A stretch of DNA of 64,000 nt from Flavobacteriaceae bacterium (GTDB lineage Bacteria; Bacteroidota; Bacteroidia; Flavobacteriales; Flavobacteriaceae): contig JAAZVY010000002.1 in assembly GCA_018623195.1 (NCBI GenBank), positions 20,446 to 84,445 on the forward strand. The letters run 5' to 3'. The notes under the pieces are model-generated. The model was not told where the DNA came from and did no database searches. It saw only the letters and a program-made list of their open reading frames with translations. A program made the position numbers and the translations under genes. This document shows positions 37,047-47,644 of this stretch, piece after piece; the stretch's first letter is position 1, and every line of letters begins with the position of its first letter.

Positions 37047-37565
37047 ATGAAAGAGTCTGTAGCAAAGAAGTTAATTACGATTGTCTCTATCGCTGTTCCT
37101 GCGGTTGTTGCGATCTTGTTTGGGGTTCGACTACCCGATGTAGAACCTTTAAGTTTTTTACCACCCATTTATGCTTCAATTAACGGCTTAACTGCGCTTC
37201 TCCTCTTAGTAGCACTTTGGTCGATAAAAGCAAAAAAGATTACGCTTCACCAGAATATCATGAAGACTTGTATAGCCCTTTCGCTTTCATTTCTTTTGAT
37301 GTATGTGGCGTATCATATGACTTCAGATTCTACTCCGTTTGGGGGTGAAGGAGTAATTAGAACAGTTTATTTTATCCTATTAGTGTCTCATATCCTGTTA
37401 TCAATAATTATCATTCCCCTTGTATTGCACACTTACTTAAGAGCTTATTTGAAAGATTTTCAAGGGCATAAAAAGCTCGCTAGGATTACCTTCCCAATCT
37501 GGCTCTATGTGGCAGTTACTGGTGTTGTAGTATACTTAATGATTTCACCCTATTATGCCTACTAG
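37047..37565 (+). CDS. DUF420 membrane protein
   Basis: This 172-residue protein has five helices and the DUF420 (CtaM/YozB-like) pattern: LPPIYASINGLTALLLLVAL, then HQNIMKTCIALSLSFLLMYV, and HTYLRAYLKDFQGHKKLARI with conserved histidines. Related proteins are linked to cytochrome oxidase maturation. The position after SCO fits this. The next gene starts inside its last codons (11-base overlap). Confidence 0.88.
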   Translation: MKESVAKKLITIVSIAVPAVVAILFGVRLPDVEPLSFLPPIYASINGLTALLLLVALWSIKAKKITLHQNIMKTCIALSLSFLLMYVAYHMTSDSTPFGGEGVIRTVYFILLVSHILLSIIIIPLVLHTYLRAYLKDFQGHKKLARITFPIWLYVAVTGVVVYLMISPYYAY

Positions 37566-37785
37566 AGTAAAATCGCTATTCATTTTTGGATTTTTTCTAT
37601 TCTTCTTTTCAGAGGTGAGTGCTCAATGTGCTATGTGTCGGGCAGTGCTCGAATCAGGTACTGACACTTCTGCTGCCGAAGGAATTAATAATGGTATTGT
37701 CTACCTTATGGCCATCCCTTACATCCTTGTTGGAGTAGTCTTTTATGCGGTTTATAAAAAATTGAGACCCACAAAATACTCTTAA
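37555..37785 (+). CDS. Small membrane protein with a CAMC motif
   Basis: This 76-residue protein has a signal peptide or first helix (about 6-22, ending VSAQ), then CAMCRAVLES, a short loop and a second helix (about 46-66). The CxxC just after the predicted cleavage site would face the periplasm, where it could bind metal or haem or be redox active. The overlap with DUF420 and the oxidase-assembly context suggest a role there. I do not recognise a characterised family. Confidence 0.7.
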   Translation: MPTRVKSLFIFGFFLFFFSEVSAQCAMCRAVLESGTDTSAAEGINNGIVYLMAIPYILVGVVFYAVYKKLRPTKYS

Positions 37786-37892: not shown

Positions 37893-38162
37893 ATGAATAG
37901 TATTAAAAATCTACACCGATTAAAGAGATTACACCAACTCATTCGATCTGAATGCACGGGTACTCCCTATGAACTTTCTAGACGTCTTCATATCAGCGAG
38001 CGTTTGGTTTATCTTTTGGTAGAACAGCTTAGAGACTTTGACGCACTCATTGAATACGATCGATCAAGACAGACCTATTATTACCGCGAATTGTTTGATT
38101 TAGAAGTGGATATTTCAGTTCGGGTTTACAATAAAGATCAGATGATTGAATTATATCGTTGA
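37893..38162 (+). CDS. Small helix-turn-helix protein
   Basis: The ATG at 37893 gives 89 residues; an upstream in-frame TTG is less likely. Residues about 22-48 (TGTPYELSRRLHISERLVYL) look like an HTH_11 or winged-helix DNA-binding unit, and the rest (DRSRQTYYYRELFDLEVDI) like the wing. There is no effector domain. It is the first gene of the AT-rich island and is likely its regulator, possibly acting on the inverted repeat just upstream. Regulation is inferred from position only. Confidence 0.65.
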   Translation: MNSIKNLHRLKRLHQLIRSECTGTPYELSRRLHISERLVYLLVEQLRDFDALIEYDRSRQTYYYRELFDLEVDISVRVYNKDQMIELYR

Positions 38163-38198
38163 TCGATTTGACTGAAAGGTTATTGCATTGTCGGCTTC

Positions 38199-38206
38199 TA
38201 GTTTTG
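38199..38206 (+). promoter_or_regulatory. -7 element in front of the peptide-island operon
   Basis: TAGTTTTG matches TAnnTTTG, 17 bases before the ATG of the 47-codon ORF. No clean TTTG sits at the right distance for -33, so it may depend on an activator such as the HTH protein. Confidence 0.4.
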
Positions 38207-38223
38207 AAACAAATTCAATGATT

Positions 38224-38367
38224 ATGTACAACACTAAGTTTAAAAAAAGTAAGCACATTAAACCGTTAGAACCTCGATTTGAAATGGGTTGGTTCAAAAG
38301 CGGTGAAATTAGTACGAGTATTCAATCAGATGGGGATTTCACCGTCACCGGTAAGATTCGTTTTTAA
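38224..38367 (+). CDS. Small ORF, 47 residues, unknown
   Basis: The ORF begins MYNTKFKKSKHIKPLEPRFE and ends TVTGKIRF. It is basic in the first half and has no membrane helix or cysteine, but has one Trp. Support for being real: a -7 element 17 bases upstream, an ATG start, and a stop that lies 1 base before the ATG of the next gene (stop 38365-38367, ATG 38369), as in coupled operons. It could be a leader ORF, a precursor peptide or a small accessory protein. I do not recognise it. Confidence 0.45.
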   Translation: MYNTKFKKSKHIKPLEPRFEMGWFKSGEISTSIQSDGDFTVTGKIRF

Positions 38368-38368
38368 T

Positions 38369-39190
38369 ATGTTCGGCGCCTACCAAGCCCTCTTTCGAAG
38401 GGGGCTTATTTATATTTTATACTTAGCTAGTTTCTTTATGCTGTATGGTCAATATTCAAATTCTATTGAGTTAGAAGAGGTCGAATTGTCGCCTGATAAT
38501 CTTGTGTTCATGTTGAAATCAATACAAGAATTGCCTCAATCTGAAAGCGTTTCAAAATTTAGTCACGTGGACTATCGCGAAATATTATCTGCTGGTAGTC
38601 ATTCGGTTATCACCACTGATAGAAAACTTATTTATCAATTAAATGTAGAACATCCCCTGAACTATTCGGATGCTTTTGAATCGAACTGGTGGTTAACCGA
38701 TGAAAAGTGTTCTTACTCTGGAAGATACAAAGGACCGTTTCCTGATTTATCTTTTGCCGCACGCACTTTTCAATTGAGCTATTTCATAAAATTATTGGAG
38801 GATTACTTTGATCGTTTAATTGTATCTAGGGAACCTGATAAACTGGGCTTGAGTTATCACTTTAGAGCTGATTCTAATATCTCTCAAATGAATATTTCAG
38901 GCTCTTTATTGTTTAATCATGAGAATCAATTATTAGAAATTCAGTTGTTTTTGCGATTGAAGCCTGGAAATTCAAATCTGTCCATTGAGAGTTTGCATAT
39001 AGTGAATACGTATCCTTTTAATGAGAAGTTAAGTCGTCAACAAGCGATGACTACCTATATTGATGCAAGTAATAAGAGAATTACTCAGTTCCAAGATTTT
39101 AGATTTTCTGAGGTCTTGGTCGAAGCTGACCAACTTCAATTGCCAGTGGATCATAAAAAGGCTCTAAAGCCCTCTTGTTATGAGCCCTGA
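38369..39190 (+). CDS. Secreted protein of unknown function
   Basis: The ATG at 38369 was chosen because it immediately follows the stop of the 47-codon ORF and gives a good signal peptide (RRGLIYILYLASFFMLYG, likely cleaved near LYGQ). Upstream in-frame TTG/ATG codons overlap the small ORF. Length 273 residues. The mature part is soluble, rich in beta-type alternation (RADSNISQMNISGSLLFNHE), and has two cysteines. No family is recognised. It overlaps the following gene by 11 bases, so it is tightly coupled to the island operon. Confidence 0.6.
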   Translation: MFGAYQALFRRGLIYILYLASFFMLYGQYSNSIELEEVELSPDNLVFMLKSIQELPQSESVSKFSHVDYREILSAGSHSVITTDRKLIYQLNVEHPLNYSDAFESNWWLTDEKCSYSGRYKGPFPDLSFAARTFQLSYFIKLLEDYFDRLIVSREPDKLGLSYHFRADSNISQMNISGSLLFNHENQLLEIQLFLRLKPGNSNLSIESLHIVNTYPFNEKLSRQQAMTTYIDASNKRITQFQDFRFSEVLVEADQLQLPVDHKKALKPSCYEP

Positions 39191-39923
39191 ATTGGTATAT
39201 GTACTTTCTCATGATAGTTCTAGTCCTTTCTATAAATCTTATGCTAGTTTGTTCAAAGGCTTTCTGTTGGATAGTATTGATAATCAAGTAATTGAAGATC
39301 TTGACATTATCGGTCATTTATTGTTTCAAATGATGATGCATATTGATCGCATCGAAGATGATCAAGCGAAAGGTATGGATATGGTTATTGCACTTCAAAC
39401 AGAAGCTGCCAAGAGACTTTCGTATTATTTTCCCATTAACCATTCCTTTTGGATGCAATACGATCGAATTGCCAAAGAGTTTGCTCAACGCAAAAGACTT
39501 GATAGATTATGTCATCAGAGAAGTAGTTGGGTTAATTATGAGACTCTCGCATTATCTCGATCAATTTATGCCGAACTAGGTTTAATAGCTCTCTTAGAAT
39601 TAGGTCTACTTCAAAATCAACGATTTAATACGCTTATTAAGAGTCATAGACAATTTGTTATTGCCTTTCAGCTTTATGATGATTGTGCTGATTTCTATGA
39701 AGATCAGAGTAAGGAACAATTCAATTGGGCAATTCACAAGGCTTCTGCAAAGGGTATTCCTCTTGATCAATTCTATCGATCTACGCTTTTTAGTGCACTA
39801 ATTGATACTGTCGTTGGTCACTTGAATAATGCTGCTGAGTTGATTGAGGAATTGCCAAGAAGTGAGTATGGCTTGCTTATAAAGAAGATAAGAGACTCGG
39901 TGGATTCCCTTTACCAAGTATAA
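39180..39923 (+). CDS. Class I isoprenoid-synthase-like protein
   Basis: This 247-residue, mostly helical protein carries QLYDDCADFYED (164-175), with D167, D168 and D171 forming DDxxD preceded by FQ. That matches the second Asp-rich motif of trans-prenyl diphosphate synthases. Around residues 54-65, HIDRIEDDQAKG (D56, D60, D61) could serve as the first metal site but is not a clean DDxxD. The length is short for a full synthase. Class I prenyl enzymes acting on peptides exist (ComQ modifies the ComX pheromone). Here the gene abuts a peptidase gene (0-base gap) in a peptide island. Function inferred; it may be inactive or use another diphosphate. Confidence 0.5.
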   Translation: MSPELVYVLSHDSSSPFYKSYASLFKGFLLDSIDNQVIEDLDIIGHLLFQMMMHIDRIEDDQAKGMDMVIALQTEAAKRLSYYFPINHSFWMQYDRIAKEFAQRKRLDRLCHQRSSWVNYETLALSRSIYAELGLIALLELGLLQNQRFNTLIKSHRQFVIAFQLYDDCADFYEDQSKEQFNWAIHKASAKGIPLDQFYRSTLFSALIDTVVGHLNNAAELIEELPRSEYGLLIKKIRDSVDSLYQV

Positions 39924-41018
39924 ATGAATTCAAAATTATTTCATTGCCCTTTGCACTTTGAGCTTATTTCAGGTCAAACCTATTTACTTAATGATAAGAT
40001 TCAATTAGTGAGTTACGAGTTAAGTAAAGAGTTATTTGATCTGTTAACTTACTGTCGTCTCCCCAGAACCAAAGCAGAACTGATCGACGAATTATCAAAG
40101 AAATTGATCTCATCCGAGGAATGCCAAGAATTAATCTTAGAGTTAGATCTACTTACAGGTAAAGAACAAAGGATTCGTTCTAAGGTACTTCGTCGAATAA
40201 ACCATGCTGGTTTACGCGGGATAGATTTAAGGATTAATCGGTGTCAATTTTCTTGGCTCAATACCTTGAAATTATTTTCAATCGAGGTTATGGTAGGTCT
40301 CTGTCTACTTGCTATGCTATCTCTGATGGCTGTTGGAATAGTGTTGGGAAAAAGTGTCCTTGATACTCCACTGCCATTTTGGGGATTGTTATTAGTTCTG
40401 CTTAGTACTCCTATTCATGAATTAGGGCACGCTATGGCCTATAAAAGTCTGGGAGGAAGCGCTTTTAGTATAGGAGCGGGTTTCTATTTTTTTATTCCGG
40501 TTTTATTCGTTGATGTTTCATTAAGCAATTCACTTTCTAGAGCTAGCCGTTTGAAAATTAGTCTAGCAGGTGTCTATTTCGAATTGATTTGGATTTTGTT
40601 TTTACTTGGTTTTGGGTTGGCTTTTCAAATTGATTGGATGTATACAGCGATCCTTTTGATCGGTATTCAAGCCTTGTGGAATTTGAACCCATTTTTTCGA
40701 TCAGATGGTTATTGGATTCTCTCTGACTTAACAAATACTCGATGGCTTTCACGAAGCAGTGCTGAAGAATTAAGGATGTTTATTAAGGCTAATAGACCTT
40801 TAAACGGGTTAGTTTTTTATGCGATTACAAGAAGTTTTTTTGTCGCTTATTGTTTTATTCATCTCATTTATCAATTCTTTTTTGCCGAAAAACGATTGGT
40901 TGAGGTCTTGATTGATTTTATTCGATCTCCTTCGATTGATCATTTTTCAGTGACACTTATACTGCCTTTTCTGTTTGTAATATCCCTTTTTCGTTATGCT
41001 GCAAAGAGATTGCAATGA
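39924..41018 (+). CDS. M50-type membrane zinc metalloprotease with PqqD-like N-terminus
   Basis: This 364-residue protein has an N-terminal soluble part (about 1-85; YLLNDKIQLVSYELSKELFD) resembling PqqD/RiPP-recognition winged helices. About eight hydrophobic segments follow. HELGH (165-169) in a helix and NPFFRSDGYW (255-264, D261) are the two metal-binding motifs of the M50 branch found with peptide-maturation clusters (YydH-like). Such proteases cut within or next to the membrane. It sits immediately after the isoprenoid-synthase-like gene and 37 bases before the double-glycine peptide, a plausible substrate. Confidence 0.75.
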   Translation: MNSKLFHCPLHFELISGQTYLLNDKIQLVSYELSKELFDLLTYCRLPRTKAELIDELSKKLISSEECQELILELDLLTGKEQRIRSKVLRRINHAGLRGIDLRINRCQFSWLNTLKLFSIEVMVGLCLLAMLSLMAVGIVLGKSVLDTPLPFWGLLLVLLSTPIHELGHAMAYKSLGGSAFSIGAGFYFFIPVLFVDVSLSNSLSRASRLKISLAGVYFELIWILFLLGFGLAFQIDWMYTAILLIGIQALWNLNPFFRSDGYWILSDLTNTRWLSRSSAEELRMFIKANRPLNGLVFYAITRSFFVAYCFIHLIYQFFFAEKRLVEVLIDFIRSPSIDHFSVTLILPFLFVISLFRYAAKRLQ

Positions 41019-41055
41019 GCTCGGATATCTTACCCTTCAATTCAAAAACATAACA

Positions 41056-41199
41056 ATGAAAAGAGCTTTATCAATACCTGAAATGAAAAAAGTGAGAGGT
41101 GGTTTCTTACCCTTTGTAGTCATCCTAGTTATCGATGCTACACTACTCGGTTTTATGAGTGGATATATTTATGAATCTTTTACCAGTGATCACCAATGA
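41056..41199 (+). CDS. Double-glycine leader peptide (bacteriocin or signal peptide precursor)
   Basis: A 47-residue ORF with ATG at 41056. The first 16 residues, MKRALSIPEMKKVRGG, fit the double-glycine leader pattern (hydrophobic residues at -15 and -12/-7 relative to the cut, Glu, then GG). The predicted core has 31 residues, begins FLPFVV, is strongly hydrophobic and contains GFMSG (a GxxxG helix-packing motif as in two-peptide bacteriocins), and ends with a polar tail. It has no Cys or Trp. A C39 leader peptidase is encoded 170 bases downstream. An in-frame upstream ATG at 40996 overlaps the protease gene and would destroy the leader pattern. Confidence 0.75.
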   Translation: MKRALSIPEMKKVRGGFLPFVVILVIDATLLGFMSGYIYESFTSDHQ

Positions 41200-41218
41200 T
41201 TTTCTCTGCATTAACCAA

Positions 41219-41251
41219 AAAATCTCTTGAGGTGGGTCTTTTCGAGATTTT
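41219..41251 (+). other. Stem-loop between the two peptide genes
   Basis: AAAATCTC (41219-41226) and GAGATTTT (41244-41251) can pair over a 17-base loop. Only TCGTT follows, so it is a poor terminator. It might stabilise or attenuate the peptide message. Confidence 0.3.
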
Positions 41252-41301
41252 CGTTCAAAGCTTTAAAAGAGGACAAGATTTTTATCATAGAAACTGTAAT
41301 C

Positions 41302-41388
41302 ATGAATAAAGAATGGCAATATGGGTTAGGTTTTGTAGCAATACTTGCCCTGTTTATAATCATTGGAAGATGGGTAGCTACCCATTAA
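41302..41388 (+). CDS. Hydrophobic micropeptide, 28 residues
   Basis: The ATG at 41302 opens a 28-residue ORF beginning MNKEWQYGLG and ending GRWVATH, with a 12-residue hydrophobic core between. It has two Trp near the membrane borders and a Lys/Arg at each end, the profile of a single-span membrane peptide. Its last 19 bases overlap the C39 peptidase start, suggesting coupled translation. It has no double-glycine leader. It could be a second bacteriocin-type peptide, an immunity-type peptide or an exporter partner. A chance ORF remains possible. Confidence 0.45.
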   Translation: MNKEWQYGLGFVAILALFIIIGRWVATH

Positions 41389-41774
41389 TCTCGGTTAAAC
41401 AACGATCTTTTTTCGATTGTGGAATAGCTTGCTTAAAAAGCCTATTTCTATACCATGGTTGTTTTTTCAGCCTTCCGAGACGACAAAAACGCTTTCGGGG
41501 GTATAGTCTTTATGAGCTTTTTAAGTTAGCTGACCAGCAAGGGATGCAAGCGTTTGTTTATCGATCCTCATCATTTGACGTAGACTGTATTCCTTGTCTG
41601 GTTCAATTAAGCTACATGGGGGTCGGACACTACGTTGTTGTATATGGTTACACTGCGAATAAAATACAGATCATGGACCCATCGGTGGGTCGTATTTATT
41701 GGTTGCCTGAAACGAAATTTCAGCGATTGTGGTCGGGATTTTTCTTAGTTCTATCAGAGAAAAAACCTCTGTAA
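41370..41774 (+). CDS. Stand-alone C39-family leader peptidase
   Basis: The ATG at 41370 is preferred (134 residues); an earlier ATG at 41313 would add 19 residues unlike the family and overlap the micropeptide. VKQRSFFDCGIACLKSLF holds the oxyanion Gln and the catalytic Cys, GVGHYVVVYGY the catalytic His, and IMDPSVG the Asp. This is the domain that cuts double-glycine leaders, normally fused to the N-terminus of a peptide ABC exporter. Here it is free of any ABC part. An ABC ATPase gene begins 100 bases downstream but is of the MacB type. Confidence 0.85.
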   Translation: MGSYPLISVKQRSFFDCGIACLKSLFLYHGCFFSLPRRQKRFRGYSLYELFKLADQQGMQAFVYRSSSFDVDCIPCLVQLSYMGVGHYVVVYGYTANKIQIMDPSVGRIYWLPETKFQRLWSGFFLVLSEKKPL

Positions 41775-41874
41775 AATCTGTTTTATTGAAATTTTAACGT
41801 TTGTGGACAACATAAGCTGTAACAAAGCAGTTTCTTTGTCGTCTAAAGGGGTATAAACGTAGCTACTCGTATCG

Positions 41875-42576
41875 ATGATAGAAATTAAAGACTTGCATAA
41901 GTCATATCAAATGGGCAGTAATTCACTGCATGTCTTAAAAGGAATCAACTTTTCTGTAGAACAAGGTGAATTAGTGGCAATTATGGGTTCTTCGGGTTCT
42001 GGTAAATCGACTTTACTGAACATCTTAGGAATGTTAGATGAAGCTGATTCAGGTTCTTATACCTTAGATTCTGTACCTATTGTAGACCTTAATGAGACCA
42101 AGGCAGCTGAATATCGAAATAAGTTTCTTGGATTTATTTTTCAGTCTTTTAACTTGATCAACTACAAATCAGCCGTTGAAAATGTTGCTCTTCCATTGTA
42201 TTATCAAGGTAAATCTAGAAAGGAGCGAAATGCTACAGCACTAGAATATCTTGATCGAGTCGGTCTAAAACCCTGGGCAGACCATTTGCCCAGTGAGCTA
42301 TCAGGAGGTCAAAAGCAGCGTGTAGCTATTGCCCGTGCAATGGCTGCAGACCCTAAAGTTCTCTTAGCTGATGAGCCCACCGGAGCTTTAGATAGCAAAA
42401 CTTCTTATGAGGTGATGGACCTCATTCAGAAAATTAATGATGAGGGTAATACCATACTCGTGGTAACTCATGAGGAGGATATCGCTCATATGTGCAAACG
42501 AATCGTCTACTTGAAAGACGGCGTGATTGTTGAAGATAAAAAAGTAGACCAAGTACGCGCCTCTCAATATGTTTAG
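41875..42576 (+). CDS. MacB/LolD-type ABC transporter ATPase
   Basis: This 233-residue ATPase has Walker [10 protein letters not shown], the signature LSGGQKQR, Walker [13 protein letters not shown] and a switch His (VVTHEED). It belongs to the MacB/LolD/FtsE branch. It is the first gene of a five-gene exporter operon (ATPase, two permeases, adaptor, TolC). Base composition is that of the chromosome, not of the AT-rich island upstream. A substrate cannot be inferred from sequence. The island peptide is one candidate. Confidence 0.94.
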
Positions 42577-43798
42577 TAGAGATACCTGGAAAGAGATTTT
42601 CGATACCATTCGAAAGAATAAGCTTAGAACCTTTTTGACAGGGTTCACAATGGCCTTAGGGATTTTTATTGTAGTCATCCTGGTAGGGTTTACCAATGGT
42701 TTGCAGAATACCTTTGAAAAATTCTTTGGGGATGATGCCACCAACACCCTGTTTGTATTTCCAGGAAGAACATCGATGCCCTACAAGGGATACACTTCAA
42801 ATCGAAGAATTCAATTCGATAATTCAGACTTAAAAGATATCGAGGAAAATTTTGCAATGTTTCTCGATTATATTACTCCACGTATTACTCGTTCTAGTCT
42901 TGTAAGATATAAGGGAGAATCTAATAACTATACGAATAGAGCAGTGGCTCCAGCCCATCAATTCAGTGAGAAAACGATTATTATGAAAGGTCGTTTTTTA
43001 AATGAAAATGACATAAATATCAGAGCGAAGTATGCAGTGATTGGGCGTTTAGTTGCCAAGGATTTATTTAAAGAGGAAGATCCTATTGGGAAATACATCA
43101 CTTTGGGCGACAGTGCATTTAAAGTTATTGGTGTGTTTCAAGACGATGGAGGGGACAATGAAGAGCGCTTCATTTATATCCCTTATACTACGAGACAACT
43201 TATCGAAAAAGGGAATGATAAGATTGAACAGATCATCCTTGGGTTTAACCCTAGTATAGGCTATGCTGGTGCTATGGCTCTTGAGAAAAATGTAACTAAA
43301 CTTCTAAAGGAGAAGAAATTCATTGCAAGAGAAGATCGCAGCGGAATATTCATTCGAAATATTGCAGATGAACTCAAGCAGAATCAACAATTTGCTCAGG
43401 TATTAGGATTTATAGCATTGTTTTTTGCCATTGGTACTATTGTTGCAGGTATCATTGGTGTAAGTAATATCATGATTTTTGTGGTAAAGGAGCGCACTAA
43501 AGAAATCGGAATTCGAAAAGCTTTAGGAGCGACACCTAGAGTCGTGATTAGTACCATTTTATTAGAGGCTACCACGATAACGATTTTATCTGGCTTCTCT
43601 GGAATGCTTGCTGGAGTGGTTATTCTTCAGAATCTGGGAGGCAAGCTTGAAGATTATTTTATCACTAATCCTTACATCGATTTGGGTTTCGCAATTGGAG
43701 CAACCGTAATCTTAATCATTTTCGGAAGTATCGCTGGGTATATTCCCGCGAAGCGTGCTGCTCGAATTAAACCCATTGTAGCACTTAGAGACGAATAA
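42569..43798 (+). CDS. MacB-type ABC permease, first copy
   Basis: This 409-residue permease has one helix near the N-terminus (about 18-40), a large periplasmic MacB_PCD domain (about 45-250), and three C-terminal helices of the FtsX fold with [20 protein letters not shown] before the second. It overlaps the ATPase gene by 8 bases and precedes a paralogous permease by 1 base. Two permease subunits would form a heterodimer. The family couples ATP hydrolysis to periplasmic substrate extrusion through an adaptor and TolC. Confidence 0.93.
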
Positions 43799-43799
43799 T

Positions 43800-45062
43800 A
43801 TGCGATTTTTATTTAAAAGCGATACATGGCAAGAAATATTCAGCTCGATTAGCAAGAATCGAGTAAGAACACTCTTAACCGTTATTGGGGTGCTTTGGGG
43901 AATCTTCGTCTATATTGCAATGTCTGGTGCTGCCAAAGGTTTAGATAATGGTTTTGAAAGACAATTTGAGACGGTTGCAATGAATTCGCTGTTTGCTTGG
44001 TCCCAGTCTACGAGCAAACCTTATAAAGGTTTTCGAACTGGTCGAAGAATTCAACTTCGATTAGGAGATATTGATGTTTTAAAGAAAAGAATTCCAGAAA
44101 TTCAGTACATCGCGCCACGAAATGCTACCGGTGTTTTTGGTGGAAGTCCTGCCTTGACGGTTAGAGGTCAGAAATCGGGTAGTTATAACGTGTACGGAGA
44201 CTTCCCGGTATACACTAAGATTGCAACAAAGAAAATTTACGATGGCGGAAGGTTCATCAATGAAATGGATATTGAAGAGTCTCGCAGAGTTTGTGTTATT
44301 GGAGAAAGAACTAAAACCGAACTTTTTGAAGATGAAGAGGAGGCAATAGGATCCTTTATTCGAATTAACGACATCTATTTTAGAGTGGTCGGTGTGCACA
44401 AGTTTGTTCCTGGTGGAGGTTTTGAATCAGATAGCGATATTTTTATCCCTTTTACCACCTTCAATAAACTCTACAATAAAGGGGATGACGTAGACTTTAT
44501 GAGCATCGCAGCCTTTGACGATGCAGATATCGTGAAAGTCGAAGAGGATGTTAAGACGGTATTAAAGTCGATTCACAACGTTGACCCAACCGATGATCGC
44601 GCTTTTGGTTCATTTAATCTTGGGGAGATTTTTGGTCAAATTCGCGGATTTGCGAACGGTTTAACCTTTTTATCTCTAATTATTGGAGCTGCAACTATTC
44701 TTGCCGGTGTTATCGGAATTGGTAATATCCTGCTGATCTCGGTTAAAGAGCGAACGAAAGAACTTGGAGTTAGAAGAGCACTTGGAGCCACTCCGGCTGA
44801 GGTGAGAAATTTGATTTTACTGGAGTCCGTTTTCTTGACCCTCGTATCCGGCTTACTAGGCATCATTTTAGGTGCTGCAACGCTGAACTTAGTTAATAAT
44901 TTAACCGAAGGGAGTGATTTCCCTTATACGAATCCGACAGTTCCAATACCCTATGTGGTTGGAGCACTTGCTTTAATGGTCATTCTTGGTACACTTATTG
45001 GACTAATTCCTGCGCAGAGAGCGGTAAGTATAAAACCAATTGATGCGCTAAGAGAAGAATAA
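43800..45062 (+). CDS. MacB-type ABC permease, second copy
   Basis: This 420-residue paralogue of the preceding permease has the same topology: N-terminal helix, periplasmic domain with RGQKSGSYNVYGDFPVYT, then three FtsX-type helices with SVKERTKELGVRRALGATPA. Both copies begin with a similar motif (DTWQEIF/DTWKEIF), so they come from a gene duplication. It is expected to pair with the first copy. It is followed 38 bases later by the adaptor gene. Confidence 0.93.
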   Translation: MRFLFKSDTWQEIFSSISKNRVRTLLTVIGVLWGIFVYIAMSGAAKGLDNGFERQFETVAMNSLFAWSQSTSKPYKGFRTGRRIQLRLGDIDVLKKRIPEIQYIAPRNATGVFGGSPALTVRGQKSGSYNVYGDFPVYTKIATKKIYDGGRFINEMDIEESRRVCVIGERTKTELFEDEEEAIGSFIRINDIYFRVVGVHKFVPGGGFESDSDIFIPFTTFNKLYNKGDDVDFMSIAAFDDADIVKVEEDVKTVLKSIHNVDPTDDRAFGSFNLGEIFGQIRGFANGLTFLSLIIGAATILAGVIGIGNILLISVKERTKELGVRRALGATPAEVRNLILLESVFLTLVSGLLGIILGAATLNLVNNLTEGSDFPYTNPTVPIPYVVGALALMVILGTLIGLIPAQRAVSIKPIDALREE

Positions 45063-45100
45063 TTTAATCAATACTATTACTATATAATTAAATACCTATC

Positions 45101-46234
45101 ATGAAAAACGTAGTTAAATGGAGTGTAATTGCTGTGCTTACCTTAGGTGGTCTTTGGGCAGCCGCATTCTTTGTAAAATCGAATAGCAAGGGTGCAATTA
45201 CTTATGAGTCTTTCCAGCCTTTTTACGGTGATATCGAACAAAAGACCGTAGCGACTGGTACCGTAGTTCCTGAGGATGAAGTTGAGATCAAGCCTCAGAT
45301 TCAAGGAATTATCGATGAGCTCGTCAAAAAAGAAGGAGACTTTGTTCAGGTTGGTGATTTAATTGCTGTGATCAAGGTGGTTCCAAATGAGCAATCTCTT
45401 TTTGCTGCTCAAGGACGTGTAAAAAATGCAGAATTACGATTGAACAATGCTAAGCTTGAGTTTGAAAGAAACGAGGCTCTTTTTGAGCGCGGTGTTATTT
45501 CGAATCAAGATTACAATAATCTGAAACTAGCTTTTGATCAAGCAACCCAAGATTTAAAAAATGCAGAGGCCGATTACCAGATTATTAAAGAAGGTTCTGT
45601 AGGAGGCTCTTCTTCTGCAAATACCAATATTAGAGCGACTACTACTGGTACTATTCTTGAAATTCCAGTTGAAAAGGGGGATCAGGTTATTCAATCGAAC
45701 TCGTTTAACGCTGGTACTACGATTGCCACTGTAGCTGACTTAACCAAAATGGTTTTTGAAGGTAAAGTGGATGAAGGAGAGGTAGGTAAGCTTAAAGTTG
45801 GTATGCCTTTAAAGGTCAGTCTTGGTGCCATTGTTGATAAAGAATTCGATGCTAGACTTCGATTTATTGCTCCAAAAGGACAAGAGGAGTCTGGTGCGGT
45901 TAAATTTAAGATTGAAGGAGATGTAGTCATTGAAGATGATTTTACCGTTAGAGCGGGATACAGTGCAAACGCATCTTTAATCTTAGAAAGAAAGGAGAAT
46001 ATCCTAGTTTTACCTGAAGCACTTTTACAGTTTGATAAGGCAACGGATTTACCTTATGTTGAGGTAGAGGTTGGGGAGCAAAAATTCGAAAGAAGAGATA
46101 TTACCATCGGAATTTCGGATGGAATTAACGTAGAGATCCTTGACGGATTAACTGCAGATGATAAGGTAAAACAGTGGAACAAGACTGAGCCAATAAAGAT
46201 TGAGAAGGAAGATGCTCCAGAACGTGGAGTGTAA
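45101..46234 (+). CDS. Periplasmic adaptor (MacA/HlyD-type membrane fusion protein)
   Basis: This 377-residue protein has an N-terminal anchor helix (about 7-25), a biotinyl-lipoyl domain split by an alpha-hairpin (KPQIQGIIDELVKKEGDFVQ; hairpin about 100-160) and a beta-barrel with VADLTKMVFEGKVDEGEVGK. It links the MacB permeases to TolC across the periplasm. The gene sits between the permeases and tolC in the standard order. Confidence 0.93.
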   Translation: MKNVVKWSVIAVLTLGGLWAAAFFVKSNSKGAITYESFQPFYGDIEQKTVATGTVVPEDEVEIKPQIQGIIDELVKKEGDFVQVGDLIAVIKVVPNEQSLFAAQGRVKNAELRLNNAKLEFERNEALFERGVISNQDYNNLKLAFDQATQDLKNAEADYQIIKEGSVGGSSSANTNIRATTTGTILEIPVEKGDQVIQSNSFNAGTTIATVADLTKMVFEGKVDEGEVGKLKVGMPLKVSLGAIVDKEFDARLRFIAPKGQEESGAVKFKIEGDVVIEDDFTVRAGYSANASLILERKENILVLPEALLQFDKATDLPYVEVEVGEQKFERRDITIGISDGINVEILDGLTADDKVKQWNKTEPIKIEKEDAPERGV

Positions 46235-46264
46235 CAAGTACTTCTTAATTCTAAACTACAACCT

Positions 46265-47644
46265 ATGAGATCATATTTATTACTTTTTTTAACGGTTTTC
46301 AGTATTGGAGCATCTGCTCAGGTGAAGAAGATGTCTTTGGCTGAATGCGTAGAATATGCCCTAGAAAACAATATTACAGTTGCACAGTTTGAGTTAGACC
46401 TAGAATCGGCTGAACTAGGAAATTTGGATGCCCTAGGTCAATTTCTACCACGATTGAATGGTTCGCTTTCTGTGAACGAGAGTAAAGGTTTAATTCTTGA
46501 CCCACAAACTCAAACGAATGTAGCCGGTAATATTTTATCGGGGAGTATTAGCCTTTCAGCAGGATACACCATTTTTGATGGTCTTCGTAATATTAAAAGA
46601 GCGCAGAGAGCTCAAATCAATACGATTGCTAATCAGTATCGCCTAGCTAATCTTCAAGATGATATTCGTTTAAGAGTAGCTAATGCCTATTTAAGTGTAA
46701 TATCATCGAAGGAGTCGCTCCGCGTTGCTGAAGCTCAATATGCGGTTACTGAGCAGGATCTAAAAAGAACGAAAGAACTAGTAGGTTTAGGAGTAGTGCC
46801 ACAGGGTGATCTTTTAGAGATTGAGGCTACTGCTGCGAATCAAGAACAAGCTATTGTAAATGCTGAGGCTCGTGTTATTCTTTCGAGAATTACGCTAGCA
46901 CAGCTTCTACAAATTACCGACTATGAAAACTTTGATATTGCAGATGAATCGTTTGAGGTTCCGAGTTCAGATATTTTAGATAAGACTCCCCGTCAAATTT
47001 TCAATAAAGCTTTGAGTTTTAGAAATGATATTAAATTATCAGAGGCGAATGTTTCATTGTCTGAACAAGACTTAGCAATTGCCAAAGGCGCTGCACTACC
47101 TACGCTAAACGCCTTCTTAAACTACAACACCTTTGCCAGTGATCGTTTCACGATTCAGGCTAATCCGAATGAAGATCCTAACGACCCTACGGATGATTTC
47201 AATTTAGTAAGGCCCGATTTTGTCGCTCAGTTAGAGGCCAATGATGGAATCTCTTTTGGGATGTCGATGAATATTCCGATTTTCAACGGATTCTCAACAA
47301 ATAACAGCATTAAACGTGCTGAAATCGGAGTAAGAAGATCAAAGCTCCAATTCGAGCAGGCAAAACTAGATCTTGAAAACGCAGTGAATCAAGCCTATAA
47401 CGATGTGAAGACTTTTGCTAAGGCTTATGAGGCGGCACAAAAGACCCTAGAAGCTAGAAAATTGGCCTACCAATATGCAAAAGAGCGTTTTGATGTCGGT
47501 CTTATGAACTCTTTCAACTTTAGTCAAGCTCAGGCGCGTTTAGATAATGCTGAGGCAAGTGTGATTCGTACTAAGTATGACTATATCTTTCGATTAAAGA
47601 TTTTAGAATTCTACTTCGGCATTCCGATTACTGTACTTCAATAA
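46265..47644 (+). CDS. TolC-family outer-membrane efflux protein
   Basis: This 459-residue protein has a signal peptide (about 1-18, ending ASAQ) and two OEP repeats of long helices with the strand regions of the barrel between. LSLAECVEYALENNITVAQ-like starts (here MSLAECVEYALENNITVA) and RAQINTIANQYRLANLQDD are typical. It provides the outer-membrane channel for the exporter encoded upstream. tsaB follows 24 bases later with its own promoter. Confidence 0.94.
   Translation: MRSYLLLFLTVFSIGASAQVKKMSLAECVEYALENNITVAQFELDLESAELGNLDALGQFLPRLNGSLSVNESKGLILDPQTQTNVAGNILSGSISLSAGYTIFDGLRNIKRAQRAQINTIANQYRLANLQDDIRLRVANAYLSVISSKESLRVAEAQYAVTEQDLKRTKELVGLGVVPQGDLLEIEATAANQEQAIVNAEARVILSRITLAQLLQITDYENFDIADESFEVPSSDILDKTPRQIFNKALSFRNDIKLSEANVSLSEQDLAIAKGAALPTLNAFLNYNTFASDRFTIQANPNEDPNDPTDDFNLVRPDFVAQLEANDGISFGMSMNIPIFNGFSTNNSIKRAEIGVRRSKLQFEQAKLDLENAVNQAYNDVKTFAKAYEAAQKTLEARKLAYQYAKERFDVGLMNSFNFSQAQARLDNAEASVIRTKYDYIFRLKILEFYFGIPITVLQ

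Follow-up and report, generated by a model that had tools for sequence, protein, structure and literature searches.

A conserved flavobacterial gene island that probably carries a standalone prenyltransferase-like RiPP module beside a bacteriocin-like module

Within a 64,000-nucleotide stretch of a Flavobacteriaceae bacterium (assembly GCA_018623195.1, contig JAAZVY010000002.1, positions 20,446 to 84,445; hereafter the window), an island of small genes at window positions 37893-41774 encodes an isoprenoid-synthase-like protein together with an M50 protease, a C39 peptidase and several short peptides, which raises the question of which peptide the isoprenoid-like enzyme would act on and how the genes belong together. 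We found that the island is real and conserved, and that it is a pared-down version of a peptide-lipid system described in 2024. In the reading that we favour, to which we give a probability of about 0.72, it consists of two linked modules, the first of which would prenylate a tryptophan in a ribosomally synthesized and post-translationally modified peptide (RiPP) without terpene cyclization, the M50 protease then removing the leader.

All eight open reading frames (ORFs) that an earlier note had listed here, running in one direction and closely spaced or overlapping, were confirmed on the + strand, and to them we add a conserved ninth that had been overlooked, an ORF of 37 amino acids (aa) at 41196-41309 whose start overlaps the stop of the double-glycine (GG) peptide gene (ATGA) and which is kept in 5/5 island-bearing congeners. 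The idea that these genes form a conserved unit was borne out, as the whole set is syntenic, in the same order and at one site, in five congeners, and one other genus (G605, locus L081) keeps the order at the equivalent site with a larger, fused synthase. Among the congeners this conservation of gene set and order is far beyond chance. Congener changes in the small ORFs are mostly synonymous (ratio of nonsynonymous to synonymous substitution rates, dN/dS, 0-0.15), marking them as coding, and against two close congeners all island ORFs have a dN/dS of at most 0.21, with near-invariant peptides. Every island ORF is under purifying selection among the congeners, the small peptides being the most constrained.

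The likely substrate became apparent from relatives of the isoprenoid-like protein, which were sought in whole genomes and in named genomes, and nearly all of which adjoin at least one short ORF with the leader motif EELExRxEM. We collected 38 distinct ORFs with this motif and kept 37 as a family, the window's 47-codon ORF included; a motif match in locus L062, antisense and without the leader pattern, was rejected as chance. A core Trp is present in 37/37 members, at position +2 or +3 after the motif in 35/37, although the search pattern did not include Trp; the 37 are not all independent, some stemming from close relatives. No ORF with a precursor-type motif occurred in 1.29 Mb of shuffled sequence. 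The window's member (38218..38367, +; 49 aa, or 47 aa from the ATG at 38224) has a leader ending in KPLEPRFEM and the core GWFKSGEISTSIQSDGDFTVTGKIRF with Trp at +2, so that the junction reads PLEPRFEM/GWFKSGE. Its dN/dS is 0-0.03, and its protein identity among the congeners is 98-100%, compared with 81-88% for the surrounding enzymes. Up to six tandem precursors with variable cores occur in C. defluvii, as expected for precursor peptides. The modified peptide probably derives from the 47-codon ORF and not from the GG peptide. Pfam and NCBIfam gave no useful match for this ORF, the secreted protein or the micropeptide. Many cores, including those of the window and of loci L052, L050, L058, L043 and L046, end in alternating polar and hydrophobic residues with a C-terminal aromatic (VTGKIRF, VEAKVKF, VTYSF, VKLSF, KWTINF) and resemble the outer-membrane beta-signal. 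In a separate locus with a standalone prenyltransferase and M50 pair (G666, L099:7512-7748), the precursor core is rich in Cys, His and Gly (GWYSCGCGCGCDGGGHHGGG..) and possibly metal-binding, and in two Bacteroidales metagenome-assembled genome loci (L044:514-1734 and L050:4520-5692) ORFs for Ser/Thr-type protein kinases lie just upstream of the precursors.

The enzyme itself is a standalone prenyltransferase-like protein of 247 aa (39180..39923, +) of the trans-isoprenyl diphosphate synthase (trans-IDS) type, carrying D56xxxD60 and Q164LYDDxxD171. Its AlphaFold2 model (predicted local distance difference test, pLDDT, 94) matched human geranylgeranyl diphosphate synthase with a Z score of 20.7 and 2.8 Å over 237 residues, and on the model we confidently predict an isoprenoid-synthase fold. 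D56, D60, Q164, D167, D168 and D171, that is, the aspartates of the first and second Asp-rich motifs (FARM and SARM) and the Gln before SARM, are invariant in 23 sequences. When the protein alone (P0003) was searched against sequences of solved structures only chance matches were returned; an alignment profile matched polyprenyl synthases. Of the 27 loci found, 26 have a prenyltransferase gene with an M50 gene close by (L064 holds a fragment only), in agreement with the proposal that the prenyl-synthase-like protein, the protease and the peptides belong together. Most relatives are proteins of 609-666 aa in which the prenyltransferase domain forms the N-terminal half and a region matching squalene-hopene cyclases (SQHop) the C-terminal half; this cyclase is absent from the window protein and had no match in its genome, which is 87% complete. 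Standalone prenyltransferases branch at three or more separate points of the tree, and the window shares both its prenyltransferase and its precursor leader with the fused-enzyme loci. The closest complete island to carry a fused enzyme, in G605, occupies the equivalent chromosomal site, which suggests that the window lineage lost the cyclase domain, although the clade of the window enzyme sits on a long branch. A two-gene tandem of prenyltransferase-cyclases with a 691-aa M50 fusion was seen in Tenacibaculum (L057:3897-10349), and distant pairs of a standalone prenyltransferase and M50, with no recognised precursor, at L100:7456-9423 and L101:7292-9272; a weak G741 match was rejected as a different kind of protein.

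The island had been put forward as undescribed; this holds only in part, since fused prenyltransferase-cyclase RiPP enzymes have been published: PMC13290415, citing Hubrich et al. 2024, presents ChrPC as a fused prenyltransferase-terpene cyclase that prenylates an internal Trp and cyclizes the chain. Compared through this description, the relatives (Chryseobacterium, Epilithonimonas and others) resemble the ChrPC type in a homologous-looking N-terminal trans-IDS-like domain with an SQHop-like C-terminus, an internal-Trp precursor and a nearby M50 protease. The window enzyme differs in consisting of the prenyltransferase domain only, with no cyclase found in the genome and with the GG-peptide/C39 module added. 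A literature search for Bacteroidota prenyl-RiPPs with an M50 protease returned nothing direct. Set beside ComX/ComQ and PalX/PalQ by description, the window shares the trans-IDS-like fold and a short Trp precursor, and its Gln/Asp spacing at SARM agrees with that reported for PalQ (Q197/D200/D204; PMC10853753). Unlike those systems, the island genes include an M50 protease with a putative RiPP recognition element (RRE)-like domain and no ComP/ComA or histidine kinase, and unlike ComQ, reported to lack the second Asp motif, the window enzyme keeps the second DDxxD.

The M50 intramembrane metalloprotease (39924..41018, +), with a putatively RRE/PqqD-like N-terminus and HExxH at 165-169, has H165, E166 and H169 invariant. 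Its N-terminus was modelled as beta3-alpha3, and Foldseek returned weak matches to it that include three RiPP proteins known to bear RREs (E 0.6 to 8.6), so that the model is suggestive of an RRE-like domain. The best family model for the whole protein was daptide_HExxH (6.5e-23), its 81.5 bits being under the equivalog cut-off of 300. Comparable intramembrane M50 proteases are daptide MpaP, described as an RRE-dependent peptidase that takes off the leader (PMC10036551), and YydH/LiaK of the epipeptides, in which M50 proteases also function (PMC10885120). The window protein differs from both in scoring well under their equivalog cut-offs (81.5 of 300 and 48.4 of 225), and, unlike daptide and epipeptide systems, the island genes include no daptide aminotransferase and no epipeptide radical-SAM gene.

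Downstream lies the second module. The GG-leader peptide (41056..41199, +; 47 aa) has the leader MKRALSIPEMKKVRGG and a hydrophobic 31-aa core without Trp or Cys; it is present in seven genomes of the genus, the window's included, and in four further genera within the family, with AG instead of GG in three congeners. The 37-aa ORF (41196..41309, +), ending in FYHRNCNHE, has relatives in other genera that carry a GG leader, lost here; its profile had no match outside the window genome among 395 genomes of the order. A single-transmembrane micropeptide of 28 aa (41302..41388, +; dN/dS 0.04-0.07) follows, with a small hydrophobic ORF equally placed in the congeners and in L081, L082 and L083, and it may be an immunity protein. 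The free-standing C39 peptidase (41370..41774, +; 134 aa; Pfam 5e-19) has Q11, C17, H87 and D103, its catalytic residues are invariant, and no other C39 was found in the genome, which also yielded no C39-ATP-binding cassette (ABC) transporter. In a congener (G001, L014:7893-8352) the C39 gene is split in two ORFs by a frameshift or an assembly error. Elsewhere, L082 and L083 run in the order HlyD-type gene, HTH (helix-turn-helix) gene, GG peptide, second GG peptide, one-helix micropeptide and C39-ABC transporter, the second GG peptide being a relative of the 37-aa ORF; the first peptide has a partial duplicate in L082, L084 has GG-peptide and C39-ABC genes with no clear second peptide, and L081 has both modules at the equivalent site with a free C39. 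From these gene orders the second module appears to derive from a two-peptide bacteriocin-like locus. It resembles class IIb GG bacteriocins in that the L081-L083 relatives of both peptides are GG-led and followed by a one-helix micropeptide, with a C39-ABC gene in L082-L083. Unlike class IIb, the window has a second peptide without a leader and a free-standing C39, and so the two defining features of paired GG leaders and a C39-ABC exporter are absent from the module.

One HTH regulator (37893..38162, +; 89 aa; a weak HTH_11 match, 69-98% identity in the congeners) heads the island operon, and its family heads prenyl-precursor loci (L017, L081) and GG-peptide loci (L082-L084) alike. Upstream, the island is flanked by a small conserved ORF (37555-37785) and downstream by an operon of an ABC protein, two permeases, HlyD and TolC (41875..47644, +). 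In three congeners the island is deleted with differing breakpoints, and the modules were lost together: in G007 the first HTH codons alone remain before the sequence enters the exporter, in G003 32 HTH residues are fused to the C39 end, and in G005 only the C39 end remains. The exporter operon, which had been counted as starting 100 bases on, is real, but we rejected it as a member of the island: it survives island deletion and is preceded by a conserved box of its own, TGTAACAAA..TTTGTCGTCT (41795..41874, +), the core of which is kept in 11 loci including the three island-deleted congeners and which is likely the exporter's own promoter. It is intact wherever fully readable and also adjoins tsaB in another genus. 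Since exporter and box persist where the island is deleted, the exporter is probably an independent neighbour. In G605 the conserved flank is separated from the HTH gene by an extra set of HlyD and permease genes (L081:14531-18196), so that export genes stand on both sides of the island. In the congener G002, in which no prenyltransferase was found, a 721-aa ORF follows the precursor on the opposite strand (L065:1436-3601), and the GG peptide and C39 are encoded on a different contig.

We propose that the RRE-like N-terminus of the M50 protease would bind the precursor through its conserved leader (PLEPRFEM), and that the standalone prenyltransferase would put an isoprenoid, probably C10-C20, on the single core Trp. 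With no terpene cyclase the tail would remain linear, and the protease would then cut off the leader at or near EM/GW, at the membrane, to release the prenylated peptide. In the second module, C39 would trim the GG peptide and the micropeptide may confer immunity. Gene content, conservation, the precursor family, the fold, the motifs and the lack of a detectable cyclase come from the analysis itself; the enzyme's activity and product, the prenylation of Trp, the length of the tail, the site of cleavage, the route of export, the biological role and any functional link between the modules are what we infer. Several observations weigh against this reading. The second Asp of the first DDxxD motif is replaced by Arg; the Gln before SARM is present in canonical synthases too and so is not diagnostic, spacing alone being no proof of Trp recognition; and the clade of the window enzyme sits on a long branch (2.5 changes per column) with deep forks open, so that its chemistry may have drifted. 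In a genome 87% complete a cyclase could be missed, the M50 model has a pLDDT of only 73 and its RRE matches weak E-values, and the 37-aa peptide, having no GG leader, would not be a C39 substrate.

A peptide that is cut and prenylated, which the earlier note had proposed with prenylation as a possibility, is also our best reading, with a different substrate. Prenylation of the GG peptide, with C39 cleavage and export by the downstream operon, draws on their shared operon, the GG leader beside a C39, and an exporter 100 bases downstream; we consider it very improbable, as the peptide lacks both Trp and Cys, its relatives stand in loci without a prenyltransferase (G758, G692, G827), and the exporter persists after island deletion. 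Prenyltransferase loci elsewhere, in which the isoprenoid-like and M50 genes co-localise, mostly have an EELExRxEM precursor and no GG peptide. If the enzyme were simply a prenyl diphosphate synthase, or a terpene synthase acting on small molecules, with no connection to the peptides, the fold and the trans-IDS-like second Asp-rich motif would be explained. Yet on the tree it is nested within enzymes whose genes accompany Trp precursors and M50 proteases, and it has a Pfam score far under the cut-off, a weakened first motif and, unlike the two canonical synthases of its own genome, no GKxxR, which makes this account improbable. Least credible is that the island is a decaying, functionless remnant: at least three deletion scars in congeners, the split C39 of G001, the lost cyclase and the lost leader of the 37-aa peptide fit such decay, against which stand the low dN/dS of all ORFs, the near-invariant peptides and the intact catalytic residues.

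Within the reading of Trp prenylation followed by M50 cleavage, a sub-question rather than a competitor is whether the modules are functionally independent, sharing a locus and perhaps the HTH regulator. Each occurs alone elsewhere (the prenyl module in L043-L063 and L099, the GG module in L082-L084), whereas they are joined at an equivalent site in two genera and were removed together in three deletions, though linkage alone could do so; independence is a serious possibility to which we incline slightly less than to its opposite. As for role, cores that hardly vary within the genus, together with the shared HTH regulator, tilt towards signalling, and the neighbouring GG peptides towards competition. 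A Gram-negative counterpart of ComQX, in which a linear-prenylated Trp pheromone sensed via the shared HTH governs a two-peptide bacteriocin of the same operon and repeated island deletion yields non-producers, we regard as an unlikely speculation.

These results define a precursor family that is widespread in Bacteroidota and recognisable by a simple sequence signature. They also show that such loci can do without the terpene cyclase domain, which probably disappeared on several occasions, and they point to peptide prenylation joined with a bacteriocin-like module in small-genome Flavobacteriaceae. Whether tails are linear or cyclized, and what the putatively RRE-bearing M50 protease does, thereby become directly testable questions.

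The remaining island gene encodes a secreted protein of 273 aa (38369..39190, +) that is conserved in 5 congeners. It had been described as a secreted orphan; it is secreted, and an hhalign comparison with the secreted CarboxypepD_reg protein of the related loci (E 0.0025, probability only 12%) weakly suggests that it is a short, divergent relative of that protein, the longer relatives carrying CarbopepD_reg_2.

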